This document shows, in pieces, positions 25,777 through 35,056 of a stretch of DNA of 64,000 nucleotides. The stretch comes from Rhodospirillales bacterium (GTDB lineage Bacteria; Pseudomonadota; Alphaproteobacteria; Rhodospirillales; Casp-alpha2): NCBI GenBank assembly GCA_018662225.1, contig JABJGO010000072.1, positions 1 to 64,000 on the forward strand, read 5' to 3'. Every line of letters begins with the position of its first letter. Within the stretch, counting starts at the first letter, position 1. The translations under genes were made by a program, and so were the position numbers. Under the pieces are notes generated by a model, which saw only the letters and a program-made list of their open reading frames with translations, made no database searches and had not been told where the DNA came from.

Positions 25777-28284
25777 TTACCCATCATTCATCACATCGCG
25801 CACGGTGCTGGCCAGGGTCTTCAGGCTGAAGGGTTTGGCCAGGAAGTGGATGGACGGGTCGCGGCTGATTTCTTCGCGGAAGACTTCTTCGGTATAGCCA
25901 GACATAAGCACCACCCGCATATCCGGCATTTCCTGACGCACCAGTTGGATGAATGTATGACCGTCCATACCGGGCATCACCACGTCTGAAACAATAAGAT
26001 CAATGGGTTCTTTCGAGCCGTTCAGCACATCCAGTGCTGTCTCGCCGTTATCGGCTTCAAGCACGGTATAGCCTTTATTACGCAGTGCGCGCGATCCAAA
26101 CAGGCGTACCGCGTCTTCGTCTTCCACCAACAGGATCACACCACTGCCAGTCAGGTCTGTTGTGGCCGAACCAACCGCATCTTCCTTTTGCCGGGCGCGG
26201 TGATCCATGAGGGCCTGGTCAGCGCCACGTGCCGCCGCCCTTACCCCTGTTTCGCCCTCAGCGCCGCTGGCGGGCAGATAGATGCTAAATGTGGTGCCGT
26301 GGCCAAGGGCGCTTTCCACAAACACGAAGCCCTCTGATTGGCGAATAATGCCGTAAACGGTGGAAAGGCCAAGCCCTGTCCCCGCCCCCACTTCTTTGGT
26401 GGAGAAAAACGGCTCGAAGATTCGCTCGATGTTTTCGCGCGATATGCCGGTGCCTGTATCGGATACGGATATAACCACGTAGGTTCCAGGCGGCATCACA
26501 TCCGGCCCGCGTTGAACAGGGGCCGTTACGGTTTCATTGCGGGTCCGCACGCTCAACGTGCCACCACCCGGCATGGCGTCGCGGGCATTCACCGCCAGAT
26601 TGATAATAACCTGATCAAACTGGCCCCGGTCAGCCCGGATCAGATAGGCATCCGGCGCATGCTCAAACGTCAACTCCACCCGCTCACCAATCAAACGACC
26701 TAACAGGTGTGAGAGATCGCCCAGCATTTCTGTGGGATCGAGCACAACAGGCTTTAGAGTTTGCTTGCGTGAGAATGCCAGCAACTGGCGCACAAGATTG
26801 GTGGCCCGATTGGCGTTCTGTTTTATTTGCATAATATCGGCGAAGGATTCGTCATCGGGGCCGTGACGCTCCAACAATAAATCAGAAAACCCGATCATGG
26901 CGGTCAGTAGATTATTGAAATCGTGAGCCACACCACCGGCCAACTGGCCCACGGCCTGCATCTTCTGAGACTGGGTGAACTGGAGTTCCAGGTGACGGTG
27001 CTCTGTTTCATCGATCACATGCAGCACCATGTCATCATTGTCGCCCATCTTTGATACATAGAGTGAGGCGGCGCGTTCTACCGCCGAATCACTGGAAGGA
27101 AACCGCACTTCCACATGGGCTGAGCGAGCCGTCCCCATGATCATCTTGGACAAGACACCAGTGTACTCTTCCTCATCCTGCGGCGCGATGAATGTGGCCA
27201 GTGATATCCCTTTTAATGCATCCCCGCTTTTGCCCAGGAATCGCGCCAGCGACGTGTTGCAATAGCGGATCGCCCCGTTGCCATCGAGAATGGCAATCCC
27301 CACCGGCGCATCATCAAACAACCAGTCAGGCGGAACAGCAGCTGCGACAGCAGCCTGGTTATCAACTGATTGATCCGTTAGATCAGCGTTCGAATCCGAT
27401 CCGTTTTCCGGATCACGCAGGACAACCGCACGGCTGCCGCCCTGCTGGGCTCGGGCCCGGCGGTTTTGAATGATATAGGCCCGAAAAGTCTGTTCGGTAC
27501 CGGTTTGCAACGTCACATAACCGACGCCGCCTTCGGGCGGAACCTTGTCTCCGCGTAATAGTTGCTCGAACGGCACCTTGTTTTGCACCAGATCATCCGC
27601 TGTCCGACCCACCCAGCGAGAAAACACGGCGTTAGAATAGGTTATGTTCCCGTCGCTGTCCGTGGCGTAGAATCCCACGGGCAAGTTGTCCAGAAAGTCG
27701 TTGACCATGTTCACTTCTTCACGGCCTTGGCGCTGGTGCTCCCGTTGCTGACTTATGTCGTCCAATCGCCACACAATATGGTCGTGATCGTCTGGCACAG
27801 CGTTGATGCGCCACCATTGCTGGCCGCCACCAGCCAGGCTAAACCAGACTTCTCCGCGTGTGGGTACCCCGCCTGAGGCATTGGCAAAAACACGCTCAAA
27901 CTCTGCCCGCGCTTCCAGGTCAATGACAGCTTCACGAATACCGGATACCCCCGACGCGGGCGTGAATGCAGCATCATAGGCTGCCGTCGCATGGATACGT
28001 TCGCCTGTCCTGTCGGTTATCAACACCGCATCACCGCCACGCATGATGGCATTTGAAATGGCGTTTGATAATTCGCCTTTCTCATCGCCCTTGCGTGCTT
28101 TCGAAAGGCAGCTCAAGGTTGAGATAACCGCAGCACCGAGTAGCCCTCCCGCCAGGCCAACCGATAGGTCAGTATCAGCCACCAGGAAAAGGGTGATGGC
28201 TGAGGTACCACACAATATACCTAATGCGCCCCAAAACAGGCGGCTGCCCAGTATACTATTTATGGTGGAACCTGCCCGATTCAT
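25777..28284 (-). CDS. cckA: Hybrid sensor histidine kinase CckA
   Basis: Membrane hybrid kinase/phosphatase that feeds the ChpT-CtrA phosphorelay controlling cell cycle and, in many relatives, motility. From the N-terminus: two hydrophobic segments (about residues 10-70), two or three PAS domains (about 85-420, with YATDSDGNITYSNAVFSRW and IAILDGNGAIRYCNTSLARF), a HisKA helix with the phospho-acceptor in LAGGVAHDFNNLLTAMIGF (H454 from the chosen start), an HATPase domain (NLAVNARDAMPGGG, GTGLGLSTVYGI) and a C-terminal receiver (ILLVEDEDAVR, IVSDVVMPGMDG). The FNNLLTA motif is typical of CckA. The frame opens at a TTG at 28302 inside the flhB stop; the ATG at 28284 is more likely, giving 835 residues. 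Gene order flhB-cckA supports the name. Confidence 0.9.
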   Translation of the reverse strand: MNRAGSTINSILGSRLFWGALGILCGTSAITLFLVADTDLSVGLAGGLLGAAVISTLSCLSKARKGDEKGELSNAISNAIMRGGDAVLITDRTGERIHATAAYDAAFTPASGVSGIREAVIDLEARAEFERVFANASGGVPTRGEVWFSLAGGGQQWWRINAVPDDHDHIVWRLDDISQQREHQRQGREEVNMVNDFLDNLPVGFYATDSDGNITYSNAVFSRWVGRTADDLVQNKVPFEQLLRGDKVPPEGGVGYVTLQTGTEQTFRAYIIQNRRARAQQGGSRAVVLRDPENGSDSNADLTDQSVDNQAAVAAAVPPDWLFDDAPVGIAILDGNGAIRYCNTSLARFLGKSGDALKGISLATFIAPQDEEEYTGVLSKMIMGTARSAHVEVRFPSSDSAVERAASLYVSKMGDNDDMVLHVIDETEHRHLELQFTQSQKMQAVGQLAGGVAHDFNNLLTAMIGFSDLLLERHGPDDESFADIMQIKQNANRATNLVRQLLAFSRKQTLKPVVLDPTEMLGDLSHLLGRLIGERVELTFEHAPDAYLIRADRGQFDQVIINLAVNARDAMPGGGTLSVRTRNETVTAPVQRGPDVMPPGTYVVISVSDTGTGISRENIERIFEPFFSTKEVGAGTGLGLSTVYGIIRQSEGFVFVESALGHGTTFSIYLPASGAEGETGVRAAARGADQALMDHRARQKEDAVGSATTDLTGSGVILLVEDEDAVRLFGSRALRNKGYTVLEADNGETALDVLNGSKEPIDLIVSDVVMPGMDGHTFIQLVRQEMPDMRVVLMSGYTEEVFREEISRDPSIHFLAKPFSLKTLASTVRDVMNDG

Positions 28285-28298
28285 AACGACTGTATGCC

Positions 28299-29369
28299 TC
28301 AATGCATCGTAGTGCCGCGTTGGCGCATGACGAAGCCAATGACCTCGGCTACAGCCTGATAGTGCTCAAGTGGAATTTCTTCATCCACTTCTACACTGGC
28401 GAACAGAGCACGGGCAAGCGCCGGGTTTTCGACAATCGGTATTTCGTTGTCTTCCGCAATTTCCCGGATTTTAAAAGCAATGTGGTCAGCCCCTTTGGCG
28501 ACCACAATCGGTGCCTGCATTTCTTCGAGCTTATAGGACAGAGCAATTGCAAAGTGCGTGGGGTTTGTGACGATCACGTCTGCCTCGGGTACATTTGCCA
28601 TCATGCGCTGGCGGGTCCGTTCTGCACGTAGCTGTCGGATACGGGCCTTCACATGAGGATCGCCCTCGCTTTGCTTATGTTCGTCTTTTACTTCCTGTTT
28701 GGTCATCTTCATCTGCTGAACAAAGGCATATTTCTGATAGATGTAATCGAAAACCGCAATGATGCTCATAATAATGAGGGAGCCAACCGCAATTCGGATG
28801 ATCACGGCATGGAGGCGGTCCAGTGTGGAAACAATCTCAATAAACGGAATCAGCGTGATATCATCAAGCAATGGCAGGGCAAGCGCTGTTGACACGATGC
28901 CCACCAGCACAAGCTTCATGATGCCCTTCACGAATTCCACCACTGAACGCAAGGAAAACATGCGCTTTAGCCCCTTAAGCACCGAAATCTTGCCGGGATC
29001 AGGGGCGAGCTTGCTTGGAGCCCAGACTAGGCCACTTTGAACAACATTGCTGGCAACGCCCATAATTATCAGCAGTATCATTATGGGGGCTAGTATCAGG
29101 CCTACGGTAACAGACACATCGTACAGTACGTCACGCAGGTGGAACAGATCAGCATCAATATTGTGGGGCTGTTCAATAAACTGACGTCCCAATTGGCTGA
29201 TCTCTTGCGCTATGGTCGGCATCATCAGGAAAAGCGCAAACGTAGAGCCCAGCAAAATTGCCCAGCTTTTGATTTCCTGGGATGATGCTGTTTGCCCTTG
29301 CTCTTTGGCTTTTGCCAATTTTCGCCCGCTGGGGTCTTCTGTTTTTTGGGCGTCGTCTTCTTCAGCCAT
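28299..29369 (-). CDS. flhB: Flagellar export apparatus switch protein FlhB
   Basis: Inner-membrane component of the flagellar type III export gate that switches substrate class from rod/hook to filament. The 356-residue protein has a charged N-terminus (DAQKTEDPSGRKLAKAKEQG), four membrane helices, and a cytoplasmic domain with the autocleavage site NPTHFAIAL, where cleavage is between Asn and Pro. The expected VVAKGADHIAFKIREIAEDN follows. It lies downstream of fliR but is separated from it by a 126-bp repeat element, and its stop is followed almost immediately by cckA. Confidence 0.96.
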   Translation of the reverse strand: MAEEDDAQKTEDPSGRKLAKAKEQGQTASSQEIKSWAILLGSTFALFLMMPTIAQEISQLGRQFIEQPHNIDADLFHLRDVLYDVSVTVGLILAPIMILLIIMGVASNVVQSGLVWAPSKLAPDPGKISVLKGLKRMFSLRSVVEFVKGIMKLVLVGIVSTALALPLLDDITLIPFIEIVSTLDRLHAVIIRIAVGSLIIMSIIAVFDYIYQKYAFVQQMKMTKQEVKDEHKQSEGDPHVKARIRQLRAERTRQRMMANVPEADVIVTNPTHFAIALSYKLEEMQAPIVVAKGADHIAFKIREIAEDNEIPIVENPALARALFASVEVDEEIPLEHYQAVAEVIGFVMRQRGTTMH

Positions 29370-29400: not shown

Positions 29401-29526
29401 TAGGGTCTTATCGTTCTTGATTTAATCAATCAAGAACGTGAATCAGCCCCTAAATATATGAATCTGAGGACGATTCACGCTTCAAAAGTATCACGAAGTG
29501 ATTCTATTTGAAACGATCGTGCTCTA
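29401..29526 (-). repeat. 126-bp structured repeat, copy A (MITE/RIME-like)
   Basis: This copy fills most of the gap between fliR and flhB. It is the near-identical inverted counterpart of 33746-33871; hand alignment gives about ten differences in 126 bases. It is bounded by TA on both sides, and the fliR stop codon TAG is formed at its edge. A perfect 10-bp stem (GTTCTTGATT/AATCAAGAAC, 29413-29437) and an ATCAC-GAA-GTGAT hairpin are present. There is no coding capacity. TA flanks are what IS630/Tc1-mariner-derived miniature elements leave; no transposase is in the window. Confidence 0.9.
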
Positions 29527-30285
29527 GGAACCGGTGAAGCGGATAAAAGTATCCTGAAAATGTTGCAGGAATAATATCATCAAGCCTGAGAGCGTAGATA
29601 TCAAAACTAGAATTTGTAGCGAAATCTGAATGGGCATGGCGAAAAAGAACAGCGGCAAGGCTGGCATAAGCCGACCCAGAATGCCCAATCCCGCATAATA
29701 GGCCAAGGCAACCACCAGAAACGGTGATGCCAGTTGTAATCCCAATGCAACGCTGTCCGCCACGTCGCGCGCCATCATCATAGCAATATCACCGACCATC
29801 AAAGCCGCACCCGGTTTGAACAGGGCATACGTTTCAATCAGGGCCTCGAACATAACGTGATGCATATCGGTTACAAAAATCATCAACAATCCGATCGTCG
29901 TCAACAAGCTGGCAACAACCGAGCTTTGCGACTCAACAATAGGATCCTGAATCATGGCATTCGCCAGTGAAGCAAACATGGCAACATACGTCCCCATGAT
30001 CTGTAACGTGCCCAGCGCAATGCGACCCAGTATACCAAAAAATACACCAATATAGGCCTCTGAAGCGATCAGAATGACCACGTCTGCCGCACCTTCGGGT
30101 TGGGGCGGTAGCAACGGCAAGACAAGGTGTGTGGACGCGAAGCTGACCGACAGCGCAATGCCTAAGCGAACACGTGTGTTCACGTAAACCGTGCTAAACC
30201 CCGGCATGATCATAAAGGCAGTGCCGACCCTGGCAAACACCAGGAAGAATCCGAATATGTTGAAGGTCAGGAATTCACTCAGCAT
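29524..30285 (-). CDS. fliR: Flagellar export gate protein FliR
   Basis: Integral membrane subunit of the FliPQR export gate. The 253-residue protein starts with MLSEFLTFNIFGFFLVFARVG, then PGFSTVYVNTRVRLGIALS, both standard FliR signatures, and has six or so membrane helices ending with LSGLMILFLQHFQDTFIRF. It follows fliQ by 34 bases. The stop codon TAG coincides with the boundary of repeat copy A. Confidence 0.94.
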   Translation of the reverse strand: MLSEFLTFNIFGFFLVFARVGTAFMIMPGFSTVYVNTRVRLGIALSVSFASTHLVLPLLPPQPEGAADVVILIASEAYIGVFFGILGRIALGTLQIMGTYVAMFASLANAMIQDPIVESQSSVVASLLTTIGLLMIFVTDMHHVMFEALIETYALFKPGAALMVGDIAMMMARDVADSVALGLQLASPFLVVALAYYAGLGILGRLMPALPLFFFAMPIQISLQILVLISTLSGLMILFLQHFQDTFIRFTGS

Positions 30286-30319
30286 ACCGGATCAACTCAC
30301 CCAAATTTACACAATGGAA

Positions 30320-30586
30320 CTAACTGAGGCCGATCATCCGATCGTACATTCTCTCTGAAAACTCGATGACGGTGTTCATCATGTACGGCAGAAATACAAT
30401 AAGGGCCGTAAAAATAACCAAAATTTTCGGAACGAAGGTCAGGGTCATTTCCTGGATGGTTGTCAGTGCCTGAAACAATGCAATGGCAACACCAATCAAT
30501 AGCCCGGCGCCCATAATCGGGCCAGCCGTCATCAGAATAACCGTCAGGGCCTCACGCCCAATGTCCAATACATCTGTTCTATTCAT
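30320..30586 (-). CDS. fliQ: Flagellar export gate protein FliQ
   Basis: Small two-helix membrane subunit of the export gate. The open frame extends to 30661, but FliQ proteins are about 88 residues and begin with a sequence like MNRTDVLDIGREALTVILM, so the ATG at 30586 is chosen and gives exactly 88 residues. The two hydrophobic helices surround the conserved QALTTIQEMTLTFVPK loop. About 118 bases separate it from fliE. Confidence 0.94.
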   Translation of the reverse strand: MNRTDVLDIGREALTVILMTAGPIMGAGLLIGVAIALFQALTTIQEMTLTFVPKILVIFTALIVFLPYMMNTVIEFSERMYDRMIGLS

Positions 30587-30704
30587 GCAATTGCCTACGC
30601 TACCCTTGATGTTCGCGACTAAGACCGCAATCTCTCTGATTCGCGCTATCATAAAGCACAAAGCGACCAGACACGACCAATTTCACATCGCTGGATAAAT
30701 AGCC

Positions 30705-31025
30705 CTACATGGGCATACGCAGGATTTCCCGATAGGCTTCAACGACCTTGTCGCGGACGCTCATCACCGTGCGCAAGGTAACTTCGGCTTCCGCCACGGC
30801 CGTTACAACCTGTGTCATATCTGCGGTGCCGTTGATACCGGCGATCGACAGCTGTTCACTGCGTTCGCCAATTTGGACAGCTTCGCGGATAGCCCCATTG
30901 ACGAGGGACGCAAAATCTTCGCCAGCAGAAGGAGCGGCTTTGCCGGGCATTTCACCCGTCACACCTTTTGCGACGTTCTTGTAGGCATCAATCGCCTGAT
31001 TAATGTTCTGTGCAGCGGTAATCAT
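30705..31025 (-). CDS. fliE: Flagellar MS-ring/rod adaptor FliE
   Basis: Periplasmic adaptor that joins the MS ring and export gate to the proximal rod. The 106-residue protein has the conserved C-terminal half: FASLVNGAIREAVQIGERSE and VVTAVAEAEVTLRTVMSVRD, ending KVVEAYREILRMPM. It is 102 bases downstream of the flgB/flgC locus and upstream of fliQ, the usual alphaproteobacterial order. Confidence 0.94.
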   Translation of the reverse strand: MITAAQNINQAIDAYKNVAKGVTGEMPGKAAPSAGEDFASLVNGAIREAVQIGERSEQLSIAGINGTADMTQVVTAVAEAEVTLRTVMSVRDKVVEAYREILRMPM

Positions 31026-31127
31026 TTTTTGTTACCTATTTCCCGTTCCAGGTTCAGTGTGCGCTGTTTCTAAGCGCGCCCGTTCCATTAGTTTTGGTCC
31101 ATTGTTATGACCCATTATTACGTTCTG

Positions 31128-31806
31128 TTATTGCGGGCCCAAAATATCGATAAGGCTTGTCAGCATAGCCTTTGAATTCTTGATCACGTTCAGATTGGCT
31201 TCGTAAGACCGTTGAGCCTCACGCATATCCATCATTTCGATTAACGTGTTCACGTTCGGCGTCAGCACATAACCGTTTTCATCGGCAGATGGGTGAGACG
31301 GATCGAACGTTTTTCCAAATTTTGAAAGGTCTGGTCGAATTTGATCAACCTGTACCATGTTCAGGCCAGATCGGTTGTTCAACACGTTTTCGAAGGTAAT
31401 GATCTGGCGGCGACCAATGGCCAATTTGAGCATGGCCAGATTCTTGCGATAGATTTGAGAGGTAAATTTGTGCATGATCGCGTTCTCGTTGAGCATTTGA
31501 ACCTGCTCTTCCAGCACAACCGAGTTACCACCGGGGGCCGTTTCATACGACAGGCGATTAGGTTCTTCGGAAAAGTCCTTGATACGCTTGCGCTGCCCCC
31601 CCAAGATGACCGTCACCGGTGGTCATATTGATCTGCATTGTTTCACGGCGCAGAATATCGCGAAACTGAAAGGGACGCAGATCTTTAGCCTTGTATTCCG
31701 GCGTATCCGCGTTGGCCACGTTCTGCGACAAGACTTCCTGACGTTGCGTCACCCATGACAAACGCTTTTTAACGGCGCTAAAGAGGGTTAGATCATCAAG
31801 GCTCAT
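31128..31806 (-). pseudogene. flgB: flgB with homopolymer frameshift, fused in frame to flgC lacking its N-terminus
   Basis: The start at 31806 gives a normal FlgB N-terminus (TLFSAVKKRLSWVTQRQEVL, then SQNVANADTPEYKAKDL), but this frame stops at 31558. A run of seven C at 31596-31602 (G on the coding strand) is one base too long: with six, the frame would continue into the FlgB C-terminal half in the other frame (DFSEEPNRLSYETAPGGNSV, VVLEEQVQMLNENAI, then KNLAMLKLAIG). At about 31407-31413, where FlgB should end, the sequence passes directly to RRQIITFENVLNNRSGLN, which matches FlgC from about its 42nd residue and runs to the normal FlgC end (NTLIEMMDMREAQRSYEANL, ILGPQ). So the flgB stop, the gap and the flgC start region are missing. 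This is either a real lesion or an assembly error. Confidence 0.85.
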
Positions 31807-31926
31807 GGTTCAAATGCCTCACTTAAGATTTCCAATTAATTTCTTGGTAGGAATTATCTGCCTAGTAGGTTAACAACTGATTAACCTTCTTTTGGCATTC
31901 CTATGGTTGAACCTTGGTAGAAGCAT

Positions 31927-32346
31927 TTGTCCGACGATACGAACCCCGATGAAGAGCCGAAAAAAGGCGCTCACAACAAGCGTAAGGACGCTGTTGCGGT
32001 CGCCATGTCCTATCATGGGCAAACGGACCAGGCGCCCCGGGTTGTTGCCGGTGGTCGGGGAACTGTAGCTGAACAGATCCTTGAGATCGCCTTTGCGAAT
32101 GGAATCAAGGTCAGAGAAGACGCTGATCTGGCAGAATTGCTGAGCGCCATCGATTTAGATGATGAGATCCCGCCCGAAGCATTTGCTGCGGTGGCCGAAA
32201 TATTGATCTATGTTTACAAAGCGAATGGAAACTGGCCTGATTACCTGAATGAAGCCTTTGGCGGTCCGGCACCAAACCCCAAAGAAGCACCAAAGGAAGA
32301 TGGATCCGACATGCCTGATAATGGCGAGGACACAACCCATGGATAG
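31927..32346 (+). CDS. FlhB C-terminal-domain paralogue (FlhX-like)
   Basis: The 139-residue soluble protein resembles the cytoplasmic end of FlhB: residues about 25-105 include AVAMSYHGQTDQAPRVVAGG, AEQILEIAFANGIKVREDAD and the FlhB-typical IDLDDEIPPEAFAAVAEIL, then YVYKANGNW. It lacks membrane helices and the NPTH cleavage motif, so it corresponds to the post-cleavage part. The start is a TTG at 31927, the first possible start after an in-frame TAG at 31918. It diverges from flgB and leads the unit flhX-unknown-fliO-fliP. Stand-alone FlhB C-domain proteins can substitute for the cleaved FlhB part in other bacteria; here the role is inferred. Confidence 0.8.
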   Translation: MSDDTNPDEEPKKGAHNKRKDAVAVAMSYHGQTDQAPRVVAGGRGTVAEQILEIAFANGIKVREDADLAELLSAIDLDDEIPPEAFAAVAEILIYVYKANGNWPDYLNEAFGGPAPNPKEAPKEDGSDMPDNGEDTTHG

Positions 32347-32638
32347 CGAGCAAGATACCAGTACAATGGAACAGGAGATCGCGGATTTGCGTTCAACCCT
32401 GGACGAGGCCCTCAAAGCCATTGCCGAAAAACAGGAGGTGGATTTGTCCCTGATCGGTGACATGGTTGAACACCTGACCAAGCGCTTACAACGTGAAATC
32501 ATATCCCTGGATCCGAGCAGACGGGAAACCATGCTGATTCAACTAACCGAAGTTGTCACAAAATTCACGATGATTGAAGAGGCCTTCAGGGCAAATGCGC
32601 CGCTCCCTGCCGGACCGAGCGACGAGGCCCTGAACTAA
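32339..32638 (+). CDS. Small acidic coiled-coil hypothetical protein in the fliOP operon
   Basis: No family recognised. The frame is open from 32249 but the upstream part overlaps the FlhB-like gene; the ATG at 32339, which overlaps that gene's stop by eight bases, gives 99 residues starting MDSEQDTSTMEQEIADLRST. Residues 10-75 are predicted helical with heptad-like spacing, without membrane segment or cysteine. The stop overlaps the fliO start (TAATG). Position between an FlhB paralogue and fliO suggests a flagellar assembly role, which is an inference from context only. Confidence 0.7.
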   Translation: MDSEQDTSTMEQEIADLRSTLDEALKAIAEKQEVDLSLIGDMVEHLTKRLQREIISLDPSRRETMLIQLTEVVTKFTMIEEAFRANAPLPAGPSDEALN

Positions 32639-32988
32639 TGGATTACACCAATATTGCACAAGCTTTTCTGGCCCTTATCTTTGTGCTTGGGTTAATCGGT
32701 GTGGTCGCCGTCGTGGCACGGCGATTGGGGTTAGGCGTACCCACACCTACCCTCAGAACCAAGAATAAGCGGGTCACGGTGGTTGAAGTAACCATCATCG
32801 ATAGCAAACGACGATTGGTGTTGGTACGGCGCGATGATCAGGAACACCTGATCCTGCTGGGTGCCACGACTGAGCAAGTCGTTGAAACCGGCATAAAAGC
32901 AGGGCAGACTCCCCTTCAGTCCACGCTTGATTCGCTCGATACCAACACGACAAATGCTTCACCTGAGATAACGAAACCACATGAATAA
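32638..32988 (+). CDS. fliO: Flagellar biosynthetic protein FliO
   Basis: Membrane protein that helps assemble the FliP ring of the export gate. The 116-residue sequence has one N-terminal membrane helix (ALIFVLGLIGVVAVVARRLG) and a small beta-rich cytoplasmic domain with VVEVTIIDSKRRLVLVRRD and HLILLGATTEQVVETGI, the standard FliO signature. It overlaps the upstream gene by one base and fliP by eight bases. Confidence 0.9.
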   Translation: MDYTNIAQAFLALIFVLGLIGVVAVVARRLGLGVPTPTLRTKNKRVTVVEVTIIDSKRRLVLVRRDDQEHLILLGATTEQVVETGIKAGQTPLQSTLDSLDTNTTNASPEITKPHE

Positions 32989-33748
32989 ATACGTAACCTG
33001 GAAACGATGTGCGCTGGCGGCTCTGGTGGGCCTTACCGGTTTGATTGTTAGCATAGGCTTTGTCTCACCAGCAGACGCTCAGATGCTGTCACTGGACCTG
33101 GGCGAAGGCGGCGGCGATGCCACGGCACGCATTGTACAGTTAATCATCTTGATCACGGTGTTGAGCCTGGCGCCCAGCATTCTGGTCATGGTCACATCTT
33201 TTACCCGTATCGTCATTGTTCTGGCGTTTGTGCGGACGGCCATGGGCACACCGCAGGCACCACCGAACCAGGTGCTCATTTCTCTGGCCATGTTCCTCAC
33301 CATTTTTGTCATGATGCCCGTGTTTGAAGAATCGTATGATTCAGGCATCCGTCCCCTGATGGAAAACCAGATTGACGAATTTGAGGCTTTCGAGCGCGCC
33401 TCTGAACCTTTCCGAGGGTTCATGATGGGGCTTGTGCGCGAAAAAGATTTGATGCTGTTCGTCAATCTGGCCGAGATAACAGACGAAGAGATAGATGAAG
33501 GAATGCCGCTTCGCGCGCTTGTGCCAGCCTTTATGATTAGCGAGCTCAGACGGGCATTTGAAATCGGTTTCCTGATCTTCGTGCCATTTCTGATCATTGA
33601 TATGGTGGTGGCTTCAGTCCTCATGGCCATGGGTATGATGATGCTGCCACCCATCATTATCGCCCTGCCCTTCAAGATTATTTTCTTTGTGCTGGTAGAT
33701 GGTTGGTATCTGGTGGTGGGGTCACTGGTCCGAAGTTTCGGAACCTAG
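32981..33748 (+). CDS. fliP: Flagellar export gate protein FliP
   Basis: Core membrane subunit of the export gate. The 255-residue precursor begins with a cleavable signal-like segment (about residues 1-33, ending PADAQ), then ILITVLSLAPSILVMVTSFT, RIVIVLAFVRTAMGTPQAPP and LISLAMFLTIFVMMPVFEE, all FliP signatures; the C-terminal half has FMISELRRAFEIGFLIFVPF and MGMMMLPPIIIALPFKIIFF. The stop TAG at 33746-33748 forms the boundary of repeat copy B. fliQ and fliR are encoded on the opposite strand in the divergent operon. Confidence 0.96.
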   Translation: MNKYVTWKRCALAALVGLTGLIVSIGFVSPADAQMLSLDLGEGGGDATARIVQLIILITVLSLAPSILVMVTSFTRIVIVLAFVRTAMGTPQAPPNQVLISLAMFLTIFVMMPVFEESYDSGIRPLMENQIDEFEAFERASEPFRGFMMGLVREKDLMLFVNLAEITDEEIDEGMPLRALVPAFMISELRRAFEIGFLIFVPFLIIDMVVASVLMAMGMMMLPPIIIALPFKIIFFVLVDGWYLVVGSLVRSFGT

Positions 33749-33871
33749 AGCACGATCGTTTCAAATAGAATCACTTCGTGATACTTTTGAAGCGTGAATC
33801 GTCCTCTATTACATATGCTTAGGGGCTTATTCACGTTCTTGATTGAACCAATCAAGAACGATAAGACCCTA
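33746..33871 (+). repeat. 126-bp structured repeat, copy B (MITE/RIME-like)
   Basis: Near-identical to 29401-29526 in the opposite orientation. It exactly fills the space between the convergent genes fliP and roxA, and its TA ends form part of both TAG stop codons. The 10-bp stem (33835-33859) is conserved while its loop differs between copies. Ends read TAGAGCACG and GACCCTA, with an ATCGTT motif repeated inversely a few bases inside each end. No open frame is present. Confidence 0.9.
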
Positions 33872-35056
33872 GAGCGACCATTCCAATGCCTGATCGTTAT
33901 ACAGTGTTGCTAACATCGATAATGCGGGCTCACTTATATCGGCCTCACTTATATCAGACAGTCCAAAGGCCTGCTCGCTGCACATACAATCCACCAACGC
34001 GCTCAGCGAGTTGTCCATACGGACAGCCTTCCCGCCATAGCCCACATAGAAATCACCGTTGGTCGCACCAACAATAACTAACTTTACATAAGCTGGCTTA
34101 ATCAACTGGCGACCGGTTTCCATATGCGCCCTCAACGTATCCACTGACAGGATGTCATCGCGTTCGCCTAAATCAGCTATGTCTTCATTGGAAGACCCTG
34201 CGAAGAACTCGGTTAGCCACTGCGCAAAGTGCCCGCCATTGACGTTTCCACTCAGCAGCGTTTGGAAATTCTGAACCGCCTCTGAAGACACCGTAAACCC
34301 AGTATCATCCATTCCCAGACTTGCGGCGCCATAAGGCTGGTCCAATGCATCAAACTCACTGAGATATTGTCCGTAACCCATAAATAAATCAGATAACTTC
34401 GGCCCCAGAAAACCGACAGAGTACGTGAGGGAACTTTCCAGCGTCACGCCCGCATGGGCAAATCGCGGGGGAATATAAATCACATCACCACAGGAGACTG
34501 TTACAGTATCGCCTACAAAATCATCGCGCAGAACTTTCAGATCGAGACCATCCACATAGATTTCCTGCTCAGGTGACAATGGCGCATTCGCCACCGTCCA
34601 CTGACGTTGCCCTGCCCCCTGCACCAGAAAGACATGATAGCTATCCATGTGGGGGCCCACGGTGCCACCGGGCGTGGCGTAGCTCACCATAATGTCATCC
34701 AGCAACCACCGGGGGGAGAAATCAAAACACCGCAACAATGCGGCTGTTTCGGGATGGTACTGCTCCACATTCTGAACCAGCAGACTCCACTTCTCAGGGG
34801 GCTGGGTTTGAAAATCTTCCTCATCAAATGGGCCAAACTGACAGCCCCATGTGCTTTGCTCATCTGGCGTATTCACCAGACGGGACCGCACGCCATCTTC
34901 ACCGGCCAGTGCAGCCAGCTCATCAGCCTCGATGAGTCCCTGCATCACCGAAACAGGAACGGCACCACGCACCACGAACGGCAGCCGGCCCCAATAGCGG
35001 GTGTAAAAAACCGATGGTGGAGGCATGGAATCAAGGATGGCTAGAGCGTTATTCAT
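33869..35056 (-). CDS. roxA: RoxA/YcfD-like ribosomal protein hydroxylase (JmjC/cupin-4 oxygenase)
   Basis: 2-Oxoglutarate/Fe(II) oxygenase of the ribosomal-oxygenase family; the E. coli relative hydroxylates an arginine in ribosomal protein uL16. The 395-residue protein has the cupin-4 JmjC core with the iron ligands H136-M-D138 (GTVGPHMDSYHVFLVQGAGQ) and H200 (YIPPRFAHAG), followed by the dimerisation and winged-helix-like C-terminal regions. N-terminal FYTRYWGRLPFVVRGA fits the family start. It is five bases downstream of the AMIN/TPR gene at the end of the motor operon, an unusual location. Its stop codon is at the edge of repeat copy B. Confidence 0.88.
   Translation of the reverse strand: MNNALAILDSMPPPSVFYTRYWGRLPFVVRGAVPVSVMQGLIEADELAALAGEDGVRSRLVNTPDEQSTWGCQFGPFDEEDFQTQPPEKWSLLVQNVEQYHPETAALLRCFDFSPRWLLDDIMVSYATPGGTVGPHMDSYHVFLVQGAGQRQWTVANAPLSPEQEIYVDGLDLKVLRDDFVGDTVTVSCGDVIYIPPRFAHAGVTLESSLTYSVGFLGPKLSDLFMGYGQYLSEFDALDQPYGAASLGMDDTGFTVSSEAVQNFQTLLSGNVNGGHFAQWLTEFFAGSSNEDIADLGERDDILSVDTLRAHMETGRQLIKPAYVKLVIVGATNGDFYVGYGGKAVRMDNSLSALVDCMCSEQAFGLSDISEADISEPALSMLATLYNDQALEWSL

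Follow-up and report, generated by a model that had tools for sequence, protein, structure and literature searches.

Why should the copies of a repeat end precisely where flagellar genes have their stop codons? The question arises from a 64,000-nucleotide stretch of Rhodospirillales bacterium DNA (assembly GCA_018662225.1, contig JABJGO010000072.1, positions 1 to 64,000), hereafter the window, in which an element of 126 bp occurs at 29401-29526 and, inverted, at 33746-33871. Alignment of the two copies gives exactly 10 differences in 126 positions, in line with the roughly ten of the original prediction, which was made from the letters alone; these fall at positions 23-25 (the loop of hairpin B), at 44, and at 54, 55, 61, 63, 64 and 65 (the spacer and the inner end of hairpin A). 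A repeat search of the window returns the pair as inverted arms 29401-29533/33739-33871, and lists one other inverted pair, of 32 nt at 78%. Both copies have TA at each end, and direct reading together with domain matches confirms that fliR, fliP and roxA take their stops from the TAG ends of the copies; that one and the same end adjoins both flagellar stops also holds, this end being TAGAGCACG. Our answer is that the elements are a family of non-coding double-hairpin mobile repeats, ~105-170 bp in length and widespread in Alphaproteobacteria, which probably target CTAG, or YTAR more generally, and rebuild stop codons with their own TAG ends. The features at issue are listed below, where R1 denotes a covariance model of the hairpin unit (A-type) and ORF an open reading frame.

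29401-29526, minus strand (read A to B): element copy 1, between fliR and flhB (sequence, repeat search, BLAST, alignment).
29464-29526, minus strand: hairpin unit A of copy 1, the outer TAG at 29524-29526 being the fliR stop (folding, R1 match).
29453-29463, no strand: spacer of copy 1 (folding).
29401-29452, plus strand: hairpin unit B of copy 1, outer end TAGGGTCTTATCG, with GAATC (a GANTC site) at 29440-29444 (sequence, folding).
33746-33871, plus strand: element copy 2, between the convergent fliP and roxA (sequence, repeat search, BLAST, alignment).
33746-33808, plus strand: hairpin unit A of copy 2, the outer TAG at 33746-33748 being the fliP stop, with GAATC (GANTC) at 33768-33772 and 33796-33800 (folding, R1).
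33809-33819, no strand: spacer of copy 2 (folding).
33820-33871, minus strand: hairpin unit B of copy 2, the outer TAG at 33869-33871 being the roxA stop; its foot is GAATA, without GANTC (folding).
29524-30285, minus strand: fliR (Pfam Bac_export_1), stop from copy 1 (ORF and domain match).
28299-29369, minus strand: flhB, co-directional with fliR and downstream of copy 1 (ORF and domain match).
32981-33748, plus strand: fliP (PF00813), stop from copy 2 (ORF and domain match).
33869-35056, minus strand: JmjC_2 domain protein, named roxA in the original prediction, stop from copy 2 (ORF and domain match).

Each element consists of two hairpins with their heads outward, a 63-nt unit A and an inverted 52-nt unit B separated by an 11-nt spacer, a build that the original description did not include. 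Unit A starts TAGAGCACGATCG and finishes CGTGAATCGTCCTCTA (the last two bases differ in copy 1), and both units follow a common plan: an outer foot TAGRG..ATCG, then a stem and loop that vary, then an inner foot in which three bases (TGA) remain unpaired. The feet and the spacer position recur, on different stems, in distant copies (from the relative genomes G004, G050 and G039), and doublets measure 116-140 bp in nine cases, with a spacer of ~11 nt, and 105-168 bp in the 31 found in GTDB genomes. All four strands of the two window copies outdo dinucleotide shuffles in folding (z -5.2 to -8.5, 0/200 equal). Over 19 units, 84.7% of cells are paired compared with 76.9% in shuffles, and 37 cells show two-sided covariation against 11.7 in shuffles (0/500 as high; slid versions at most 15), a control that is optimistic because the units are mutually related. 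Conservation of the stem, as originally claimed, is upheld by this covariation; besides selection on structure, palindrome self-correction could also yield covariation. In one copy of the window's genome (contig C49, locus L003:1576-1630) the B unit is symmetrised, with matching outer and inner feet, which points to intrastrand correction of the palindrome.

The expected further copies of the miniature element are present. In the window's own genome (G000; G, L and C numbers stand for relative genomes, fetched loci and contigs) R1 finds 9 A-units (17 rows, palindromes being matched on both strands), and BLAST alone adds a tenth piece of 39 bp (C94:17813-17851). R1 also matches in 39/150 relatives, five of these with at least 35 units scored. 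A search of GTDB genomes with a DNA pattern of the foot returned at least 119 stretches, and the doublet, set-1 and control figures given here rest on the matches listed; R1 matches at 114/119 listed loci (76/80 and 38/39). Alphaproteobacterial names are carried by 73/80 listed records (judged by title; Hankyongella checked), among them Brevundimonas, Sphingomonas, Hyphomicrobium, Filomicrobium and Acidocella, as well as Rhodospirillaceae and records named Phenylobacterium and Caulobacteraceae, and five of the 80 titles give just bacterium or Proteobacteria. The pattern matches in Brevibacterium and Wenzhouxiangella have no R1 match and are probably due to chance. Rfam holds no family matching the elements (its sole window match sits elsewhere), a plasmid sequence search gave no match to the element, and a phage search gave a 26-base match (E 0.4) to three Vibrio phage records; one viral contig in IMG/VR carries the element pattern (L388:3744-3798).

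We infer from the flanks that insertion duplicates a TA. Removal of the element with one TA from the 31 complete doublets leaves CTAG in 26, CTAA in three, and TTAG and TTAT in one each, so that 30/31 reconstructed sites are YTAR. The base 5′ of the TA was scored in two samples. Set 1 comprises 121 element ends with R1 support, from the GTDB loci found by foot pattern (five rows without an R1 match, L108, L118, L129, L143 and L180, were left out), and set 2 comprises 93 units from seven relative genomes, which are part of the R1 matches there (94 chosen, one without a region). This base is C in 92/116 and T in 20/116 of set 1 (C or T in 112/116), and C in 75/93 and T in 14/93 of set 2 (89/93). 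In coding DNA, CTAG occurs at 0.207 per kb (observed/expected 0.23), compared with 1.324 per kb (0.91) in non-coding DNA. Corresponding sites in relatives were compared where available. The congener G001 lacks the element at both window sites; there FliP and FliR terminate at the residue where those of the window do, on TGA codons. Without the element, one site in G118 reads CCTAG and that of three congeners CCTGG, and a third G118 copy (L278:3359-3497, G118:C28) lies, as judged by eye, inside the loop (CTAA) of a hairpin resembling an intrinsic terminator. Nine G102 sites were searched as joined flanks, and one is spanned by relatives; here it is the element that ends purF (a name given from the sequence), a gene that stops at the same codon in G149 (TAA), G142 (TGA) and G057 (TAA). 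At another locus of this genome (L301, G102:C1) an element adjoins an older copy or lies within the end of one, and the flank to the right of this element matches element sequence in G142.

How often, then, does the element supply a stop? Of the 121 ends in set 1, 70 point toward a called gene's 3′ end, 46 point away and 5 lie at an edge, and the element TAG is the first in-frame stop in 40/70 (41/73 before the five rows were left out). In set 2 it is the stop at 17/63 ends (1/19 in G118, 8/18 in G102), 28/93 ends face away from the 3′ end of the neighbouring gene, and six further ends lie within or overlap called ORFs (the stop is 1013-1193 bp on, or the ORF starts beyond the end). The set-1 pattern demands an intact TAG end and its stop share is possibly inflated, whereas set 2 is free of that demand. 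As controls, each non-coding CTAG (or YTAR, or TA) outside the elements in the same loci was scored as a pseudo-element, and the comparison was limited to ends that have a gene 3′ end no more than 200 bp away. Elements lie on stops in 40/63 cases in set 1 and 17/50 in set 2, or 57/113 pooled (50%; 41/65 in set 1 and 58/115 pooled with the five rows kept), the respective control values being 240/1186, 101/563 and 341/1749 (19.5%) for any TA, 139/383, 55/178 and 194/561 (35%) for YTAR, and 50/109, 13/34 and 63/143 (44%) for CTAG. The pooled elements far exceed the any-TA control (p 2e-12); no significant excess over the CTAG control is found for the pooled elements (p 0.32) or for set 2 alone (p 0.82). 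Because the pooled stops do not exceed the CTAG control, target choice accounts for most of the stop placement, and the pooled data call for no more than a CTAG target, though they leave some scope for a further contribution. The proposal that the element inserts at TA within stop codons is kept in part: placement on stops recurs, and a target of any TA or a special affinity for stops gives way to CTAG/YTAR. An origin of the stop class by truncation is unlikely because random frames would make stops inside the element about twice as common as stops at its end; a stop within 200 bp inside is found in 1/70 (set 1) and 6/63 (set 2).

In the low-copy G000, 7/10 copies or pieces bear a stop at an end, with eight stops in total: both window copies and those on C49, C26, C36, C90 and C94. 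The C26 gene is a weak gene call, whose end we take to resemble nucleoside diphosphate kinase. No stop lies at the outer ends examined in the other three, namely the 39-bp piece, C11 and C47, though in C47 a gene stops at the unit's inner end. This share exceeds that of the window's own YTAR sites (14/78, p 0.0004); the window has just 9 non-coding CTAG sites, one of them a stop.

These results are consistent with a simple course of events. The element would be inserted in trans by an IS630/Tc1-mariner-type DDE transposase, with duplication of the TA. CTAG is strongly depleted in genes and not between them, and a large part of the CTAG sites where an insertion does no harm consists of stops of the form C TAG. 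Both element ends begin with TAG, and insertion at the TA of a stop would restore that stop in the same frame on either side; convergent genes sharing one CTAG at their stops, as fliP and roxA possibly did, would each keep a stop. As a weaker step, once the element TAG is the sole stop of a gene, that end may stay while the rest decays. Each of the shortened stop-bearing copies (C36, C90 and C94) retained its stop end, and the stop share is 31/86 (set 1) and 11/47 (set 2) where the partner unit is not recognised, compared with 10/35 and 6/46 where it is. Retention of stop-bearing ends would explain the 7/10 in G000. We suggest, tentatively and with more doubt than confidence, a capture of stop codons in which a TAG end that serves as sole stop cannot be lost, a ratchet that would enrich old genomes for stop-bearing remnants as the remaining copies decay; if true, copy age and stop fraction would be linked across Alphaproteobacteria.

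Could the elements instead be placed, or kept, at stops by selection for a role at the 3′ end, the hairpins stabilising or terminating mRNA, or the GANTC sites giving CcrM-dependent control? The covarying stems fit such a role, as do the 7/10 in G000 and the excess over the YTAR control. GANTC occurs 1.52 times per A-type unit (102 units) compared with 0.22-0.26 in mononucleotide shuffles by genome, an about six-fold enrichment; the site in the foot (95/102) is partly built into R1 and its count is partly circular, and the apical site (52/102) is less so. At the B foot, GANTC is present in window copy 1 and absent from copy 2. We nevertheless hold this explanation improbable. Pooled placement on stops is no higher than in the CTAG control, many ends face away from a gene 3′ end (46/116 in set 1, 28/93 in set 2), and the covariation can also arise by palindrome self-correction, as suggested by the C49 B arm. 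Copy 1 moreover lies inside the fliR-flhB unit, where a strong terminator would be costly because the two genes read in the same direction. No T-tract follows the element hairpins on their 3′ side, and the region has 6 terminator-like matches, about as many as chance predicts (5.1), one of them touching copy 1 on the strand opposite fliR; the termination signal of the original prediction is thus not borne out, and nothing in the data requires a function. The same applies to the suggested inversion of the segment between the copies, for which we find no evidence: inversion would leave all stops intact, and the sole congener compared, G001, which has no elements there, has the same gene order. 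Directly downstream of flhB, and overlapping it, lies a large histidine kinase-like ORF (25777-28302, minus strand), which we take to resemble CckA.

The mobiliser is inferred from target and ends, and a kinship of the elements with IS630 is plausible on the same grounds. IS630 reportedly prefers the TA in CTAG, to go by the title of Tenzen and Ohtsubo (1991). Among 22 IS630 loci of relatives, seven (L046, L047, L049, L050, L052, L210 and L215) have paired TA-GAGC ends, at the sites CTAG (3), CTAA (2), TTAG (1) and ATAG (1), of which six fit YTAR. The remaining 15 loci showed no pair of this kind. TAGAGC is common to the elements and these seven loci, and the longest match, TAGAGCACG, is in L047. 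A TA duplication on insertion is described for ISY100 (in an excerpt of PMC2170065). In G110 an IS630 (L215:913-2116, C115) occupies the inner TA of a hairpin unit, the only unit in 35 transposase loci (a separate group of 16 loci gave 0/16); we reject it as an autonomous parent and take it as a nested insertion, which shows a shared target and not mobilisation.

Two other kinds of transposase deserve consideration. The elements resemble REPINs in that their two hairpins are inverted, keep a conserved foot and have an asymmetric bulge, the unpaired TGA on the inner side; if they were REPINs, a RAYT (Y1) transposase would move them in single-stranded form. Matches of the RAYT type (PF01797) occur in 6/14 carrier genomes, and in a sample of 61 genomes, where carriers are those listed with R1 matches, in 5/12 carriers compared with 13/49 others; PF01797 has no match in G000 or in 8/14 carriers (including G050, G095, G102 and G118), and the unit is found in 0/19 Y1 loci of relatives (8 and 11). 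The flanks, too, fit a symmetric YTAR (A after the right TA in 3/31, T before the left TA in 20/116) and not a fixed cleavage tetranucleotide, and we see little chance that this explanation is right. Slimmer still is the prospect of an IS5/IS427-type transposase that duplicates TA or YTAR and whose ends resemble the B-unit end TAGGGT. A PF13340 locus of this type in G110 (L242:970-1808, C115) has the ends TA-GGGTTTGTTGAGAATC, its start resembling the B-unit end, and PF13340 is above cut-off in 6/12 genomes (G118, G129, G102, G110, G095 and G073). This distribution is patchy, G000, G142, G085, G050 and G045 having none, and no common sequence is seen past TAGGGT.

Several findings weigh against insertion at CTAG/YTAR by an IS630-type enzyme with rebuilding of stops. 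The identity between element and IS630 ends is 6-9 bp. No match to IS630 (PF13358), RAYT (PF01797) or PF13340 was obtained in G000, and PF13358 is likewise without a match in 9/14 carrier genomes, including the high-copy G118, G129, G102 and G095; loss of the IS630, or its omission from draft assemblies, may account for this. In the 61 genomes IS630 is no commoner in carriers (3/12) than in others (14/49). Seven pairs of inverted unit ends bound long elements (loci L091 up), none of which was recognised as autonomous, their interiors being without a protein search. As to the sites, the roxA of G001 is 8 residues longer than that of the window and crosses the fliP end, the roxA end not being conserved, and a second G118 site is unlike CTAG in its two congeners. 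As to placement, the stop statistics rest on gene calls by a home-made caller; the pooled elements exceed the YTAR control (p 0.002), set 1 by itself lies above the CTAG control (40/63 versus 50/109, p 0.03), and the 7/10 in G000 exceed the set-1 CTAG sites (49/209, p 0.002). These three excesses indicate that target choice does not account for everything. The retention of stop-bearing ends that might add to it is a trend in both sets that is not significant (pooled p 0.08).

Target choice with rebuilding of the stop nonetheless offers a simple, testable reason for repeats that lie exactly at stops, namely a target that is avoided in genes, is common at stops and has its stop rebuilt. In the open papers searched, we found no explanation of stop placement based on CTAG. 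That the TAG termini of a repeat can provide stop codons to flanking ORFs is already in print for the GTAG REPs (excerpts of PMC3733652), a precedent that also counts toward the REPIN explanation. According to the same excerpts, REPs and REPINs (GTAG and CGTC REPs) share with the window family hairpins near gene 3′ ends, the occurrence of dimers, and TAG termini as stops; the window family differs in its longer units, its TA-flanked YTAR target and the absence of a RAYT match in G000. The RUP of pneumococcus is, with IS630-Spn1, an example of an IS630-derived miniature inverted-repeat transposable element (excerpts of PMC2229807). The window family resembles such elements, as described there, in its length of ~100 bp, its TA target and its ends, TA-GAGC as in the IS630s of relatives, and differs in having two separate hairpins, an end identity of 6-9 bp and no IS630 found in G000. 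With the RIME of Rhizobium (Osteras 1995), an intergenic mosaic repeat of Alphaproteobacteria in the excerpted account of PMC2573895, it has in common that it is an alphaproteobacterial intergenic repeat, a likeness drawn from description. The family that we regard as closest, compared by description, is that of the Caulobacter CcrM-associated intergenic repeats (CIR; Chen and Shapiro 2003), which are ~110 bp long, consist of two inverted-repeat arms and a linker, contain GANTC and are widespread in Alphaproteobacteria (excerpts of PMC2229807). The window family is likewise intergenic, alphaproteobacterial and of similar length, with two inverted arms joined by a linker and with GANTC, as far as the excerpted description goes; in contrast to CIR, its GANTC is placed in the A foot, and in about half of the units also near the apex, and a YTAR/TA target can be proposed. 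The covariance model finds double-hairpin repeats widely across Alphaproteobacteria, and the review asks, in its excerpts, for more information on the mobility of CIR; the target site of the window family provides an argument for how CIR-like double-hairpin repeats may move.

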